A program made the position numbers and the translations under genes. From Acidimicrobiia bacterium (GTDB taxonomy: Bacteria > Acidobacteriota > Vicinamibacteria > Vicinamibacterales > UBA2999): 64,000 nucleotides of DNA. Of the stretch, positions 14,916-59,305 are shown in pieces. The stretch spans positions 1-64,000 of the forward strand of contig VFZG01000002.1 in NCBI GenBank assembly GCA_016871275.1, given 5' to 3'. A model generated the notes under the pieces. The model made no database searches. It saw only the letters and a program-made list of their open reading frames with translations, and was not told where the DNA came from. How positions within the stretch are numbered: position 1 is the stretch's first letter; each line of letters begins with the position of its first letter.

Positions 14916-16868
14916 ATGAAGCGCGGCCTTCTCACCTTCGGCATCGGTATCGCTCTGTGGTCCCAACTCAGCGCCCAGCAATGGCCGTTCTACGCCGGCG
15001 ATCAGGCCGCGAACCACTACTCCCCGCTCGATCAGATCACCGCAGCCAACGTCGGCAAGTTGGCGATCGCGTGGGAGTGGAAGCCGGACGAGAAGGTCCT
15101 GCCGCAGTTCGGCACCCGGCCAGGCGCGTTCCAGAACACGCCGCTGGTGATCGATGGCGTGATGTATCTCAGCACGCCCTACAACCAGGTCGTCGCGCTC
15201 GATCCAACGAGCGGCAAGGAACTCTGGCGATACGACCCGAAAGCGTACGAGGATGGCCAGCCGCCGAACGGCCAGGGCTTCGCGCATCGTGGCGTGGCGG
15301 CCTGGCGCGACCCCTCGACTGCGCTCGGGGCCGGCAAGGGGCAGCTCCGCATTTTCCTCAACTCGCGCTACAAGCTGATTCAGCTCGACGCCAGGACCGG
15401 TACGCCCGTGCCGTCATTCGGCAAGGCCGGGGTGATCGATCTCAGCGAGGGCCTGGTGTGGGCGATCAACAAGAAGCACTACACCAACACGTCACCGCCC
15501 ATCGTCTACAAAGACCTGGTCATCGTCGGCAACGGCGTCGGCGACCGCCTCACCTACAAGCACGATCCGCCGGGTGACGTACGTGCGTTCGACGCGCGCA
15601 GCGGGGCGCTCCGGTGGAAGTTCAACACCATTCCGCAGCGCGGCGAGTTCGGCAACAACACCTGGGATGCCGGATCGTGGCAGTTCACGGGACACACCAA
15701 TGTCTGGGCGCCGATGAGCGTCGACGAGCAGCGCGGATTGCTGTACATGCCGGTGAGCACCCCCAGCAACGACTATTACGGCGGGCGGCGGCCGGGCGCC
15801 AACCTGTTCGCGGAATCAATCGTGTGCCTGGACGCCAATACCGGCGTGCGCAAGTGGCACTTCCAGATCGTGCATCACGGGCTGTGGGACTACGATCCGG
15901 CATCGGCGCCCAATCTCGTCACGCTCACCATCGACGGCAAGCGCATCGATGCGGTGGTGCAGCTCACGAAGCAGGGCTGGGCGTTTGTGTTCGATCGCGT
16001 CACGGGGCGGCCGCTGTGGCCAATCGAGGAGCGCCCCGTGCCACGCAGCGATGTGCCGGGCGAGGCCTCCTGGCCGACGCAGCCCTTTCCCACCAAACCG
16101 CCGCCGTTCGAATCGCAGGGCGTCACGCTGGATGATGCGTTCGACGCGACGCCGGAATGGAAGGCGCGCGCCACCGCCGAGCTTCAGAAGTATCAGCTGG
16201 GCCCCATCTACACACCGCCGTCGCTGCGCGGCACGGTGGTGTTGCCTGGCGTGTGGGGCGGCGCGAACTGGGGCGGAGGCGCCTTCGATCCGGCCACCGG
16301 CCGGCTCTTCATCAAGACGACGAGAAGTCCGGCAATCTTCAAGATGGAGCCGTTCAACAACGGCGCGCAGACCGGGGTCCCCGACGCGCGGACTGTGCGC
16401 GATGGGGTGGAGTCGCGGGATCGGGTCGACGAGGTAGACGCCGAGTACGTGCAGCGCAGCCCCTCGTCATTCATCGACGGTGTCCCGATCCTGAAGCCGC
16501 CCTACGCGCACCTGGTTGCTCTCGACTTGAATCGCGGAGACATTGCGTGGCGGGTGCCGTTCGGCGACGCGCCGGAGATTCGCGCACTGCCGGCGCTCAA
16601 GGGCGTGCCGCTGCCCGATCGGCTGGGCGCGGTTGGCCCGCCGGGAGCCATCGTCACGAAGTCCGGGCTGGTGTTCGTGGGCGGCAACGATATGGCGTTG
16701 TCGGCATTCGACGCTCGAGACGGCCGCGAGCACTGGCGCTACGTCTTACCGAGGCAGGCAACGGCGACGCCGATGACGTATCTCGATGCGAACGGCCGTC
16801 AAGTCATCGTCATCGCGACCGGGCGGGGTGAAGATACCGCGCTGGTCGCTTTCCGGTTGGAGCCCTGA
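14916..16868 (+). CDS. PQQ-dependent dehydrogenase, glucose-dehydrogenase-like, no haem
   Basis: 650 aa with a signal peptide (MKRGLLTFGIGIALW, cut near LSAQQ) from the ATG at 14916. Propeller motifs include WPFYAGDQAANHYSPLDQI at the start, the GDH-type catalytic-region motif HHGLWDYDPAS, GGANWGGGAFDP and GGNDMALSAFD. It lacks the five N-terminal membrane helices of E. coli Gcd and any C-terminal cytochrome, so it must pass electrons to another partner. An in-frame 20-base palindromic repeat at 15311-15330 contributes DPSTALG (residues 132-138), which looks inserted relative to relatives. A small secreted protein gene begins one base after the stop. Confidence 0.85.
   Translation: MKRGLLTFGIGIALWSQLSAQQWPFYAGDQAANHYSPLDQITAANVGKLAIAWEWKPDEKVLPQFGTRPGAFQNTPLVIDGVMYLSTPYNQVVALDPTSGKELWRYDPKAYEDGQPPNGQGFAHRGVAAWRDPSTALGAGKGQLRIFLNSRYKLIQLDARTGTPVPSFGKAGVIDLSEGLVWAINKKHYTNTSPPIVYKDLVIVGNGVGDRLTYKHDPPGDVRAFDARSGALRWKFNTIPQRGEFGNNTWDAGSWQFTGHTNVWAPMSVDEQRGLLYMPVSTPSNDYYGGRRPGANLFAESIVCLDANTGVRKWHFQIVHHGLWDYDPASAPNLVTLTIDGKRIDAVVQLTKQGWAFVFDRVTGRPLWPIEERPVPRSDVPGEASWPTQPFPTKPPPFESQGVTLDDAFDATPEWKARATAELQKYQLGPIYTPPSLRGTVVLPGVWGGANWGGGAFDPATGRLFIKTTRSPAIFKMEPFNNGAQTGVPDARTVRDGVESRDRVDEVDAEYVQRSPSSFIDGVPILKPPYAHLVALDLNRGDIAWRVPFGDAPEIRALPALKGVPLPDRLGAVGPPGAIVTKSGLVFVGGNDMALSAFDARDGREHWRYVLPRQATATPMTYLDANGRQVIVIATGRGEDTALVAFRLEP
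15311..15330. repeat. Palindromic repeat, family A, inside PQQ dehydrogenase 3
   Basis: CCCCTCGACTGCGCTCGGGG matches the reverse-complement form of the repeat at 12590. It lies in frame within the coding region and encodes part of DPSTALGAGKG, in a loop between two propeller strands where the two flanking beta segments would otherwise join directly. Confidence 0.6.
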
Positions 16869-16869
16869 C

Positions 16870-17130
16870 GTGGTCGACAACTACACCAGGACTGTCCTCA
16901 CCGTGATTGCCGGCGCACTCCTCCACCGCTGCGTCGCGATGACGCCGTTGCCAGCCGCCCATGCGCAAGGTGTCACCAAGCGCCCTGGCGAATTCAGCAG
17001 TCCAGCAGAAGTCGTCATCACCGGCTGGAAGAGCACCGCGCCGATTCCCATCGTCTCGAACGAGCCGATGCGGGTAGTCACCGAGCGCAGCTCAGGCGCC
17101 GCGGATCGGGTGGTCCTGGTCGGGTGGTAG
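16870..17130 (+). CDS. Small secreted conserved-type hypothetical protein
   Basis: 86 aa from a GTG at 16870, one base after the PQQ dehydrogenase stop, with GGAG upstream inside that gene. The N-terminus VDNYTRTVLTVIAGALL followed by AHAQG is a signal or anchor peptide. The remainder contains PAEVVITGWK, an IPI motif and RVVLVGW at the end. Short proteins opening with a Tyr-Thr-Arg-x-Val-Leu-Thr-Val-Ile-Ala segment are, from memory, frequent in related genomes. Their role is unknown to me. The C-terminus stops abruptly after VGW. Confidence 0.5.
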   Translation: MVDNYTRTVLTVIAGALLHRCVAMTPLPAAHAQGVTKRPGEFSSPAEVVITGWKSTAPIPIVSNEPMRVVTERSSGAADRVVLVGW

Positions 17131-22375: not shown

Positions 22376-22378
22376 TGA

Positions 22379-22418
22379 CCCGACTACCCGACTACCCGAC
22401 GTCCCGACAGCCCGACTG
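22379..22418. repeat. Octamer tandem repeat between moaB and moeA
   Basis: Five tandem copies of CCCGACNN (TA, TA, GT, AG, TG at the variable positions) fill almost the entire gap between the two genes. No ribosome binding site for moeA is visible within it. Confidence 0.75.
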
Positions 22419-28024: not shown

Positions 28025-28112
28025 GACTGGTTGCCGGTTGCCGGTTGCTGGTTACTGGTTGCTAGTTACCGGGCGGTTCCAGCAACCAGCAACCAACAAC
28101 TAGCAACCAACG
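28025..28112. repeat. Interleaved inverted repeat between mqnE and the M28 gene
   Basis: The left arm holds degenerate heptamers (GGTTGCC, GGTTGCT, GGTTACT) and the right arm their complements. GGTTGCTGG (28043-28051) pairs with CCAGCAACC (28079-28087), and GGTTGCTAGTT (28058-28068) pairs with AACTAGCAACC (28098-28108). The structure covers the ancestral stop of mqnE and could terminate its transcript. Confidence 0.6.
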
Positions 28113-29220
28113 GGTATTCGCACCACGCTGTAGAGCGTGTCGCGCTCGATCGGTTCGCGGCCCTCGGTTCGCGGCCCGCGTCCCAGATCAGCCGCTCGAT
28201 GTCTGTCGTCGACAGCGCTGCCGGCGTCTTCGAGCCGGCCATGTGGTAGATGGTCTCTTCCTGGACGGTGCCGTCGAGATCGTCGGCGCCAAACCACAAC
28301 GCGGTCTGGGCCACGTCGACCCCGCACGAGATCCAGTAGGCCTTGATGTGGTCGACGTTGTCGAGCATCAGTCGCGCGACCGCGTGCACTTTCAGCGTCT
28401 CGCTGGCCGAGGGCGCGGGCAGCTTGCGCATCTGGTTGTGGTCAGGGTGAAACGCCAGCGGGATGAACGCCTGCAGGCCGCCGGTCTCGTCCTGCAACGC
28501 GCGCGTCTGCATCAGGTGGTCGACGCGCTCCTCCGTCGTCTCGATGTGGCCGTACAGCATCGTGACGTTGGTGCGCATGCCGAGCCCGTGCGCGATGCGA
28601 TGGATGGACAGGTAGCGCGCGCCATCACACTTGTCGTGGCAGATCTTCTGGCGCACGCGCGGCGCAAAGATCTCGGCGCCGCCGCCGGGCAGCGAATCGA
28701 GGCCGGCCGCCTTGAGCTCCTGCAACACCTGCGTGTCGGTCTTGCCGTAGTGATCCGCGAAGAACGCGATCTCGACGGCGGTGAAACACTTCAGGTGAAT
28801 GCCCGGCCGCACCTGCTTCAAGCCGGTCAGCAGATCGGTGTAGTAACTGAACGGCAGTCCCGGGTGCAGGCCGTTGACGATATGGACTTCGGTGACGGGC
28901 TCGCCGGCGCGCTGACGAAGCTTGTCGAGGATCTGCGACACCGACATGGTGTGCGAACCCGGCATGCCTTCCTTCAGGCGCGCGAACGAGCAGAACAGGC
29001 ACGAGGCTTCGCAGACGTTGGTCGCCTCGAGCCGCAGGTTGTGATTGAAATAGGTGCGGGCGCCATGACGGCGCTCGCGCTCGCGATTGGCGAGCCAGCC
29101 GAGCGCGAACAAGTCCTGCGACTGGAACAGCGCCACGCCGTCGTCGAACGACAGGCGCTCGCGCGCGCCGACTTTCTCGGCGATGGCGTCGAGGCCGGCG
29201 GACTTGAGTCGCTGCCGCAT
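28066..29220 (-). CDS. mqnE: Aminofutalosine synthase (radical SAM), C-terminus altered
   Basis: 384 aa as it stands, from the ATG at 29220. It catalyses the first committed radical step of the futalosine menaquinone pathway, adding SAM-derived adenosyl to the chorismate-derived enol ether. The 4Fe-4S motif CEASCLFC has Cys70, 74 and 77. Family motifs include HIVNGLHPGLPFSYY, LDSLPGGGAEIF, TMLYGHIET and AFIPLAFHP. At the 3' end a 14-base tandem duplication (28150-28177) shifts the frame: without it the chain would end REPIERDTLYSVVRIPVGC, as expected for the family, but the actual frame ends in an unrelated tail running into a repeat. mqnB and mqnD lie at 36.8-38.2 kb. Confidence 0.88.
   Translation of the reverse strand: MRQRLKSAGLDAIAEKVGARERLSFDDGVALFQSQDLFALGWLANRERERRHGARTYFNHNLRLEATNVCEASCLFCSFARLKEGMPGSHTMSVSQILDKLRQRAGEPVTEVHIVNGLHPGLPFSYYTDLLTGLKQVRPGIHLKCFTAVEIAFFADHYGKTDTQVLQELKAAGLDSLPGGGAEIFAPRVRQKICHDKCDGARYLSIHRIAHGLGMRTNVTMLYGHIETTEERVDHLMQTRALQDETGGLQAFIPLAFHPDHNQMRKLPAPSASETLKVHAVARLMLDNVDHIKAYWISCGVDVAQTALWFGADDLDGTVQEETIYHMAGSKTPAALSTTDIERLIWDAGREPRAANRSSATRSTAWCEYPLVASCWLLVAGTAR
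28150..28177. repeat. Perfect 14-base tandem duplication in mqnE
   Basis: TCGGTTCGCGGCCC occurs twice head to tail (28150-28163 and 28164-28177). Fourteen is not a multiple of three, so the second copy shifts the reading frame of the last mqnE codons. Confidence 0.9.
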
Positions 29221-29287
29221 CAGGCGGTCAACCCTTGGACGTGGGCGATCCTGAACATCACTCCATTGTAGTAACATTTGCCGCTCA

Positions 29288-29404
29288 CAGATTACCCGGA
29301 GAGGAGGGGAAGTGGGTGTGAAGCCCACACGGTCCCGCCACTGTAAGTCACGCCGCAGCCCGCAGGGCGCAGGCGGACGAGTCAGGTGACCTCCTTGTCC
29401 AGGG
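29288..29404 (+). promoter_or_regulatory. Cobalamin (adenosylcobalamin) riboswitch
   Basis: Conserved core elements appear in the right order: GAGGGGAAG, the paired GTGGGTGTGAAGCCCAC helix, ACGGTCCCGCCACTGTAAG (the B12-binding core), a GC-rich paired arm, and CGAGTCAGGTGACCTCCTTG, the last conserved box. It lies directly upstream of a TonB receptor and vitamin B12 ABC genes, as expected for repression by cobalamin. Confidence 0.92.
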
Positions 29405-29414
29405 CTAGTCATTT

Positions 29415-29443: not shown

Positions 29444-31717
29444 ATGACCGTCGCCATACGTCCGCACCTGCGGGCGCTGCTCTTTCTTTTCACTTCTCAC
29501 TTCTCACTTCTCACTTCCGCTGATGCCGCAGGTCTCAGCGGCCGCGTCGTGGATCCGTCGGGCAAACCGGTCGCGAACGCGGCAGTGATCGTCAACGGCG
29601 CGACGGCCGCGCCGCTGCTGGCGCGCACGGACGGTGATGGCAAGTTCGCCATCGCATCGCTTGAGCCGGGTAGCTATTCGGTGGTGGCCAGCGCGCCAGG
29701 CCTGGCGAGCAGCGCCCAGGCGGTACGCATTGCCAACGACGCCACCATCGAGATTGCGCTGCGGATCAGCGCGTTCACCGAAACGCTGGTGGTCTCGGCA
29801 GCGCAGATCGATCAGCCCCTGTCACGCATTCCCGACAGCGTGACGGTGATCGACGGGCGCGAGATCGACGCCCGCCAGCAGTTCACGCTCGCCTCGGTGC
29901 TGCGCTCGGTGCCGGGTCTGACGCTGCAGCAGAACGGCGGGCCCGGGACGGTGACGTCGCTGTTCACGCGTGGCGGCGAATCGGATTACACCCTGGTGCT
30001 GGTCGATGGCGTTCGAGCCAACGCGTTCGGCGGCGGCCTCGATCTGTCGCAGGTGCCGGTGCAGGACGTGGAGCGCATCGAAGTGCTGCGCGGCTCGCAG
30101 AGCGCGCTCTACGGATCCGACGCAATTGCCGGAGTCGTGCAGGTGGTGACGCGCAGCGCAGGACGCCCGTCCGCACAGGCGCAGGTCGAGGCCGGCAGCC
30201 GCCAGATGCGCCGCGCCGGCGCGGCGACCAGCGGCGAGGTGAATGGTTTCCGCTGGCAGTTGGGCGCCAACTACTTCGAGGACGCCGGCTTCACGGGCAC
30301 CGCCGCCAACGGCCAGTCGGTGTCGAACGATGACGCGCATGGCGCCCAGGGCGCGGCGTCGATCGGCTGGCGGCATCCCGCTCGCGGTTCGGATCTCCAG
30401 GCCTCGGTGCAGTACGTCGACACCGACCGCGGCTCGCCCGGCGCGTATGGCTCCGATCCGGCCCGGCGGTACGCCGGCGTCGATCGCATCTCGCGTGGCA
30501 CCACCCAAAGAGTCGCCGGCGGCGTGCGGATGATGCAGCCGTGGTTCGGCGCCTCCAGCCGCGTCCGCCAGCGGGTCGAGCTCGACGTCGCGGACTACGA
30601 CCTCAGGTTCGTCAGCGCGTTCGGTGCGTCAGAGGGCAACACGCATCGTGCGCACGCGCGCGTCCAGACCGACGTGTCGGCCAACGCCGCGCTCGGTTTC
30701 TCGGGCGGACTGGAGTGGCTGGCTGAGAGCGGCCGCAGCACATTCATCAAGGCCGGCAGCGCTGGAGCGGTCCCGGTGGAACGCGGCGTGCTTGGACTGT
30801 TCGCGGAGACCCGGTGGAACGCGACCAATCGCGCGACGCTGACCGCCGGGGTGCGTGGCGAGCGCATCAGCCGAGAGGCGCTGCGGGGCGATCCGTCCGC
30901 CTTTCAACCGCGGCCGGACTTCCCGGAAGAAACCATCGGTTCGTTCAACCCGAAGATCGCCGGTGCATGGATGGTTCGCGACGGCACCCGCCTGCGCGGC
31001 TCGTTCGGCACCGGCATGCGCCCGCCCGATGCGTTTGAGATCGCCTTCACGGACAACTCGGGACTGAAACCGGAACGGAGCAAGAGTGGCGAGGTCGGAC
31101 TGTCGCAGGCGTTCGCGTCGGGCGCGGTGCAGATCGACGCCGCCGCGTTCTTCAACAGCTACACCGACCTCATCATCTCGGTCGGCCGGGCCTTCTCCGG
31201 CGTGAGCCGCTGGCGTACGGACAACATCTCGAACGCGCGCGCGCGCGGCGCCGAACTGTCCGGCGCCTGGCTTGCCCACCGTGGCCTTGGCGCCGGGCGG
31301 ACCGGACTGCTCGCCCTGCGCGCCAGCTACACGTTCCTCGATACCGAGATTCTTGCGGTCAAAGGGTCCTCGATCGCACAGACGCCGTACACCGTCGGCG
31401 ATCGGCTGCTGCGCCGTCCGAGGCATTCCGGTGCGATTGACGCCACGTGGACCGAGTCGCGCGTGTCCGCGTTTGCCCAGCTGCAGATCCGCGGCGAGAC
31501 CCTCGATGCCGAACCAGCGTTCGGCCCGACCGGAGGGCTCTACCGGAATCCCGGACACACGGTCATGAATCTCGGCGGGTCGTTCCGGCCGGTCAAGACC
31601 ATCGAGGTCTTTGCGCGGGCGTTGAACCTGTTCGATCGCGACTACGAAGAAGTGCTGGGCTACCCGGCCCAGGGCCGGACGGCCTATGTGGGTGCGCGAG
31701 TTGCTGTGGGCCGATAA
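29444..31717 (+). CDS. TonB-dependent receptor, BtuB-like, riboswitch-controlled
   Basis: 757 aa outer-membrane importer. The signal peptide carries a short tandem repeat (CTTCTCA units near 29488-29517) encoding HFSLLTS. Residues about 30-110 form a carboxypeptidase-regulatory-like beta domain (SGRVVDPSGKPVANAAVIV). The plug domain follows (IPDSVTVIDGREID, VPGLTLQQNGGPGTV, DVERIEVLRGSQSALYG, GVVQVVTRS), then a 22-strand barrel ending in ARVAVGR. The upstream cobalamin riboswitch and downstream BtuD-C-F genes indicate corrinoid uptake. It overlaps the ATPase gene by 32 bases. Confidence 0.9.
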   Translation: MTVAIRPHLRALLFLFTSHFSLLTSADAAGLSGRVVDPSGKPVANAAVIVNGATAAPLLARTDGDGKFAIASLEPGSYSVVASAPGLASSAQAVRIANDATIEIALRISAFTETLVVSAAQIDQPLSRIPDSVTVIDGREIDARQQFTLASVLRSVPGLTLQQNGGPGTVTSLFTRGGESDYTLVLVDGVRANAFGGGLDLSQVPVQDVERIEVLRGSQSALYGSDAIAGVVQVVTRSAGRPSAQAQVEAGSRQMRRAGAATSGEVNGFRWQLGANYFEDAGFTGTAANGQSVSNDDAHGAQGAASIGWRHPARGSDLQASVQYVDTDRGSPGAYGSDPARRYAGVDRISRGTTQRVAGGVRMMQPWFGASSRVRQRVELDVADYDLRFVSAFGASEGNTHRAHARVQTDVSANAALGFSGGLEWLAESGRSTFIKAGSAGAVPVERGVLGLFAETRWNATNRATLTAGVRGERISREALRGDPSAFQPRPDFPEETIGSFNPKIAGAWMVRDGTRLRGSFGTGMRPPDAFEIAFTDNSGLKPERSKSGEVGLSQAFASGAVQIDAAAFFNSYTDLIISVGRAFSGVSRWRTDNISNARARGAELSGAWLAHRGLGAGRTGLLALRASYTFLDTEILAVKGSSIAQTPYTVGDRLLRRPRHSGAIDATWTESRVSAFAQLQIRGETLDAEPAFGPTGGLYRNPGHTVMNLGGSFRPVKTIEVFARALNLFDRDYEEVLGYPAQGRTAYVGARVAVGR

Positions 31718-36820: not shown

Positions 36821-37630
36821 TCACACAAACAGCGGCCGCGCCGGATCGGCCGGCGGAAAGACCCCCTCGCGCCGTCCCCACTCCAGCATGGTCCTGACCG
36901 CGCGCTCATCGAGCGCGCGGGTGTACTCGTTCACGTACAACGCAATGTGCCGTTTGGTGACGTCGGGATCCATCTCCCGGGCGTGCGCGGCCACATAGCC
37001 GCGGCTGGCATCAGGATGCGCAAACGCGTAGTCCACGCTCGCCTTCAGCGCGGCGTCCACCCGCGGTGCCAGGTGCGCGAGATCGCGGCGAACGGCGATC
37101 GCCGCCAGCGGCAGAGGCGAGCGCATGCGTTCCTCCCAGACACTGCCAAGATCGACCAGCAGCGTCAGGCCTTTCCGCTCGAACGTGAAGCGGCCTTCGT
37201 GAATCAGCACGCCGCAATCGACGTCGCCGCGCAGCACGGCATCTTCAATCTGATCGAATCGCATCACCACCGTGTCGAAACGCCCCAACTGGCGCAGCAA
37301 CAAGGCGGCGGTCGTTCGTTCACCGGGAATCGCCACCCGCCCGCCGACGTGGCGTTTAGACCGGGCGACGACAATGGGGCCGACGCCGAACCCGGCCGCG
37401 CCTCCGGCCCGCAGCAGCACCAGCCGATCCGCCAGCCCGTGTCCGTAGGCGTTGATCGACACCTTGGTGACCTCCGCCGCGGGCGTCGCCGCTCGAATGT
37501 TGAGCGCCTCGATGTCGTCGAGATGCGCCGTGACCGCCGGACTGTCAACCAGCCCATGCACGATGGCGTGGAACGCGAAGGTATCGTTGGGACAGGGCGA
37601 GAACGCGAAGTTCAGCGGCGATCGATCCAC
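36821..37630 (-). CDS. mqnD: 1,4-dihydroxy-6-naphthoate synthase
   Basis: 269 aa. A GTG at 37630 is chosen: AGGAGG lies ten bases upstream and it reads VDRSPLNFAFSPCPNDTFAF, the family's opening. MqnD is a periplasmic-binding-protein-like enzyme converting cyclic dehypoxanthinyl futalosine to the naphthoate ring. Supporting motifs are SPCPNDTF, KVSINAYG, GVGPIVVAR, the catalytic-His region CGVLIHEGRFTF, and LPLAAIAVRRDL. It overlaps the end of mqnB by 19 bases and is co-transcribed with it. Confidence 0.9.
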   Translation of the reverse strand: MDRSPLNFAFSPCPNDTFAFHAIVHGLVDSPAVTAHLDDIEALNIRAATPAAEVTKVSINAYGHGLADRLVLLRAGGAAGFGVGPIVVARSKRHVGGRVAIPGERTTAALLLRQLGRFDTVVMRFDQIEDAVLRGDVDCGVLIHEGRFTFERKGLTLLVDLGSVWEERMRSPLPLAAIAVRRDLAHLAPRVDAALKASVDYAFAHPDASRGYVAAHAREMDPDVTKRHIALYVNEYTRALDERAVRTMLEWGRREGVFPPADPARPLFV

Positions 37631-38232
37631 GCGAGCAGCGCCTCCTGAGCGGCCCCGGCCGCCTCCCGCAATCGCCACGACCTGACGTCGCGGTTGGTGG
37701 CCAGGTTGCTGATGCCGCGGACTTCACCGACCGGGACGTTCATCAGGTGCGCAACGTGGGCGATCGCCGCGCCCTCCATGCTCTCAACCGCGCCGCCGGT
37801 TCGCGCCGCAATCGCCCGCGCGACGCTGTCGATGCCGCTACAGGTGGACACGGTGACGAACTTCACGCGGCGTTCGACCGGGAACACCTGCATCGGCAAG
37901 TCGTTGTAGATCGGCGCCGCACCGGGCACCACCGGGAAGCCAAGCGCCTTCATGTCCAGGAACCCCGATGGGCTGGCGGCGCCAAGATCGCCGTAGCACT
38001 CCTCGCCGGCGCACACCACCTCGCCGACGTTGAGGCCTGAACCGGGATACGAGCCGCCGACGCCACACACCACCACCGCACGCGGACTGGACTGGGCGAT
38101 CGCGACGGTGACCGCGTGCGCCGCGTTCACCGGGCCGACGCCGGTCACGACGACCTTGACGTCATCACGGCCGGCCAGCCGCTCGCGCAACAGCGCGCCT
38201 TCAAACGCGGTGGCCACCGGCACCAGCAGCAT
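37612..38232 (-). CDS. mqnB: Futalosine hydrolase
   Basis: 206 aa nucleoside-phosphorylase-fold enzyme that removes hypoxanthine from futalosine (or the adenine equivalent). Motifs: MLLVPVATAFEGALL, VVVTGVGPVNAAHA, VVVCGVGGSYPG, the base-binding VESMEGAAIAHVAHLMNVP, and VRGISNLATNRD with the catalytic Asp. Length is typical. With mqnE at 28 kb this places the organism in the futalosine menaquinone route; mqnA and mqnC are not in this window. It diverges from moxR. Confidence 0.9.
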   Translation of the reverse strand: MLLVPVATAFEGALLRERLAGRDDVKVVVTGVGPVNAAHAVTVAIAQSSPRAVVVCGVGGSYPGSGLNVGEVVCAGEECYGDLGAASPSGFLDMKALGFPVVPGAAPIYNDLPMQVFPVERRVKFVTVSTCSGIDSVARAIAARTGGAVESMEGAAIAHVAHLMNVPVGEVRGISNLATNRDVRSWRLREAAGAAQEALLAWIDRR

Positions 38233-59231: not shown

Positions 59232-59273
59232 CTCCGACTACAAGAGTTCTACTTTAACGCCGAATATGAATAT

Positions 59274-59305
59274 CGGGCTGCGGGCTGCGGGCTGGCTACG
59301 GGCTC
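59274..59305. repeat. GGGCTGC/GGGCTAC repeat, copy 1
   Basis: Imperfect short tandem units (CGGGCTG, CGGGCTG, CGGGCTGG, CTACGGGCT) between the SIMPL gene stop and the cysM start. The same sequence type recurs at 60027-60067 and, inverted, at 60475-60499. Confidence 0.6.

Follow-up and report, generated by a model that had tools for sequence, protein, structure and literature searches.

The main finding of this work was a perfect 14-base tandem duplication close to the 3' end of mqnE, the only copy of the aminofutalosine synthase (radical SAM) gene in the source genome, which shifts the reading frame and removes a C-terminal segment that is strongly conserved among relatives. We consider it somewhat probable that recent replication slippage produced the second copy, with loss of the ending ERDTLYNVV and a product that is probably defective. 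The source genome is a draft of 3.96 Mb in 124 contigs, and the named genomes closest to it in the collection searched are MAGs of Acidobacteriota, part of them labelled Vicinamibacterales. The features discussed here, in the window (the whole stretch of 64,000 nucleotides that was analysed) and in the other sequences compared, are given in Table 1.

Table 1. Positions of the features at the mqnE locus and of the repeats compared with it.
Feature	Position	Strand	Basis
mqnE, aminofutalosine synthase (radical SAM), sole genome copy	28066..29220	-	TIGR03700, 454.2 bits
Frame-shifted tail RAANRSSATRSTAWCEYPLVASCWLLVAGTAR and stop codon (28066-28068)	28066..28164	-	Translation, comparison with relatives
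Former coding end, old frame readable as ...ERDTLYSVVRIPVGC-stop	28100..28149	-	Ends a 75-aa ORF; motif kept in relatives
Perfect tandem duplication, 2 x 14 bases	28150..28177	-	Matching run exactly 14, no extra matching base at the edges
Inverted heptamer arrays (GGTTGCY)n / (RGCAACC)n, long hairpin at mqnE end	28033..28111	-	RNA fold
Cobalamin riboswitch	29272-29412	+	Rfam RF00174, 46.9 bits
PF02621 gene of mqnA/mqnD type, like mqnB several kb away from mqnE	36821-37678	-	
mqnB (futalosine hydrolase)	37612-38232	-	TIGR03664
Short tandem array (CACTTCT)n	29483-29520		
Short tandem array (CGGGCTG)n	59273-59295		
Short tandem array, 8-base (ACCCGACT)n	22377-22409		
Inverted-heptamer hairpins, own sequence	L116:17722-17782; L120:12368-12412; L149:19752-19808		
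Inverted-heptamer hairpins, related sequence	L159:5348-5447; L161:4030-4079, 16810-16880; L152:12606-12684; L153:6899-6969		

The Duplication and the Altered End of MqnE

The 14-base unit TCGGTTCGCGGCCC is present twice, head to tail, with 100% identity over both copies. An order-3 Markov model built on the window predicts only about 0.01 perfect period-14 repeats per 64 kb. The duplication described in the initial annotation was confirmed. In a survey of 846 kb of the source genome it was the longest perfect frame-breaking duplication outside heptamer arrays and a poly-G run, the remaining perfect period-14 repeats being pieces of such arrays or of that run. A run of about 30 G, which is odd in a bacterial draft and may reflect faulty assembly or sequencing, was also observed on the same contig outside the window (L132:7189-7218; contig C2 of G000).

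The encoded protein belongs to the MqnE family, since its TIGR03700 (NCBIfam MqnE) score of 454.2 bits exceeds the cut-off of 434.55, and the match covers profile positions 1-341 of 351; the gene probably starts near 29220, where the alignment of the relatives begins. The radical-SAM motif CxxxCxxC is found in the translation as NVCEASCLFC, whereas the C-terminal ERDTxY segment, at the end of the profile, is missing. An insertion of 14 bases does not preserve the reading frame, so that beyond ...AGREP the chain is read out of frame and ERDTLYNVV is swapped for 32 unrelated residues, the window MqnE reading ...DAGREP-RAANRSSATRSTAWCEYPLVASCWLLVAGTAR-stop. Downstream of the duplication the old frame still reads ERDTLYSVVRIP and, followed to its terminus, IERDTLYSVVRIPVGC-stop. 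Programmed frame shifting was considered and rejected, as inspection of the sequence revealed no X-XXY-YYZ slippery heptamer at the two copies.

Both the minus-strand TIGR03700 match and the translation agree with the initial annotation in placing the duplication in mqnE and in an altered C-terminus, while two of its details stood only in part. A one-copy version would indeed recover a family-like ending, but the stop would not follow VVRIP at once, since the chain would finish ...SVVRIPVGC-stop, with VGC preceding the TAG at 28100-28102. Likewise, the new tail had been described as read from a repeat, which holds for about 13 of the 32 residues, derived from the heptamer repeat, but not for the first 19, which come from the second copy and from what used to be coding sequence, now read out of frame. 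Automatic annotation would call this MqnE intact, as it passes the family cut-off despite the missing conserved end, and the finding is in this respect chiefly a quality note.

Conservation of the Lost Ending and Predicted Effect on the Protein

Of 149 genomes sampled from the order, 123 have an MqnE above the cut-off. Apart from that of the window, one broken by an N-gap and one truncated at a contig end, these matches extend to at least position 348. In relatives whose sequence reaches the gene end, GREPxERDTLYNVV or a close variant of it precedes a short terminus that varies. As claimed initially, the duplication therefore breaks a family-like ending that all uncut relatives keep, and the alignment of C-termini that had been proposed as a check showed E351, R352, D353, T354 and Y356 (G007 protein numbering) to be invariant in 23 of 23 aligned relatives; the altered tail was found in none of the relatives with a readable gene end. 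The ERDTLYNVV-type motif is conserved across phyla, being common to the MqnE of Bacteroidota, and the crystallised enzyme of Pedobacter heparinus (6xi9/6xig) carries RKPIERDTLYNVV.

Three further genes whose profile matches were shortened were examined as candidate C-terminus losses and rejected. In G020 the N-gap sits just ahead of an intact GREPLERDTFYNV, and the genes of G123 and G009 are both cut by contig ends. The gap in G020, which is another species, is 9 bases long and located in the middle of L171 (contig C39); it masks a frame change in mqnE that mimics a loss of the C-terminus.

AlphaFold2 models were made with relatives for the window MqnE and for that of a congener, and PDB 6xig/6xi9 was the best structural match for both. 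The normal ending is ordered in the model of the congener, with strands at 348-352 and 358-360; in that of the window protein, residues 376-403 have pLDDT below 50, and the new tail is predicted to be disordered. From the sequence, the frame-shifted product would keep the radical-SAM barrel and would probably be inactive or weak, because a segment conserved across phyla is missing. A search of the literature on the role of the MqnE C-terminus turned up nothing usable.

The initial interpretation, in which function would hinge on tolerance of the altered tail and the duplication itself could be an artefact, was upheld. If it is real, it constitutes a natural test of the need for the strongly conserved C-terminus. 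A real and fixed duplication whose altered tail is tolerated, leaving a working MqnE, would agree with the intact radical-SAM core around NVCEASCLFC and with a profile score still over the family cut-off; nevertheless, the invariance of the five residues in 23 relatives, the presence of the motif in Bacteroidota and the predicted disorder of the new tail make this outcome improbable.

Age and Origin of the Duplication

Comparison of mqnE codons 20-372 with congeners gave dN of 0.05-0.10 and dS of 0.44-0.70, with no other lesions, as expected if the upstream codons have been under normal purifying selection until now. The low dN and the readable old frame suggest that decay has not begun, and this selection together with the readable frame suggests that the duplication is either very recent or an artefact. 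A profile search found mqnE in single copy in the genome; a second strong radical-SAM match, considered as a backup mqnE, turned out to be MqnC, whose gene lies on contig C44 next to a PF02621 gene of MqnA/MqnD type. The futalosine pathway is otherwise complete. Since the gene is single and the remaining pathway is present, a fixed loss of mqnE would be costly, and an artefact or a population variant is therefore likelier. Divergent from mqnE, and downstream of the cobalamin riboswitch, there is a gene for a TonB-dependent receptor (29444-31717) closest to the B12 receptor family.

According to one explanation, the organism has an intact mqnE, and the second copy entered the draft through faulty assembly, read errors or a mixture of strains. 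The source is a metagenome-type genome in 124 contigs, the old mqnE frame remains conserved, a fixed break is unlikely in a single-copy gene of an otherwise complete pathway, and the strong hairpin that adjoins the site can disturb amplification and sequencing, all of which fit such an error. However, ordinary reads exceed the 28-base tandem, so that assemblers normally resolve such repeats, and about 62 kb of source sequence with homologues, in a screen that tails shorter than 25 residues escape, showed no further internal frame shift, suggesting that the assembly is not generally error-ridden. We consider an error of this kind a real possibility, although a doubtful one.

We favour recent replication slippage, in which 14 bases near the mqnE 3' end would have been copied in the sequenced cells, a process that the long hairpin some 40 bases from the site may have promoted. 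The resulting frame shift swaps ERDTLYNVV for 32 residues, some of them drawn from old coding sequence and others from the downstream heptamer array. The adjacent perfect copies are those of a slippage-type tandem duplication; the lag-14 match run, by contrast, equals the period exactly, and the absence of junction microhomology weighs against slippage, which often leaves some, although this is common rather than required. It also counts against slippage that a consensus genome should rarely hold a broken gene needed by a menaquinone-dependent cell. The mqnE lesion is no new kind of system; it is either an ordinary mutation of recent date or an error of the draft.

Heptamer Arrays and Hairpins

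Both the old and the new stop of mqnE lie inside the pair of inverted heptamer arrays, whose arms (28036-28108) form a hairpin of -59.2 kcal/mol (z -7.2). Lag-7 arrays are enriched in the source genome, with 25 in 846 kb, compared with 9 for lag 6 and 17 for lag 8. Of the 25, 13 lie away from long ORFs, even though coding calls cover about 91% of the sequence. They also occur in congeners, with locus-specific words. Among 22 long hairpins from own and related sequence 10 show period 7, and the inverted-heptamer hairpins use 7-base words that differ by locus and species. The AGCAACC repeat was considered as common to the relatives and rejected, the word being confined to the source genome among those searched, whereas the relatives have other heptamers.

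The introduction of one study (PMC4679880) cites a suggestion that slippage of the polymerase is favoured by units of 7 bases. A tie between heptamer slippage and the 14-base (2 x 7) duplication of mqnE is possible, from this single case. A broader role for the heptamer hairpin, as a hot spot that drives 7- or 14-base slippage in adjacent coding DNA and reversibly damages gene ends, appears very unlikely. Even less credible to us is a contingency locus, in which reversible changes of the two-copy repeat would toggle mqnE among the cells of a population. In its favour, an exact return to one copy is possible for perfect direct repeats, the unit length breaks the frame and a slippage-prone heptamer array adjoins; on the other hand, there are two copies only, and none in relatives, mqnE is a housekeeping gene, and both states are nowhere shown.

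Comparison with Known Systems

The window protein resembles characterised MqnE (TIGR03700; PDB 6xi9, 6xig) in its radical-SAM barrel, its CxxxCxxC motif and its profile match up to position 341, and differs from it in lacking the conserved ERDTLYNVV ending. With slippage frame-shift alleles, that is, short tandem duplications, the mqnE lesion shares a head-to-tail perfect copy, a length that is not a multiple of three and an otherwise intact gene; it differs in having no junction microhomology and in the long heptamer hairpin that stands about 40 bases away. A literature search on short frame-breaking duplications turned up nothing usable.

Heptamer-built hairpins across the genus are a known kind of repeat. 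Heptameric repeats, often as two inverted arrays, have been described in Xanthomonas, and G-rich heptamers in Nostoc (PMC4692102); heptamers of Beggiatoaceae have been described as well (PMC4679880). The repeat neighbouring mqnE is likewise made of intergenic 7-base tandem units, in inverted pairs as in Xanthomonas, but the words found here (GGTTGCY, CACTTCT, CGGGCTR and others) vary by locus and by species.
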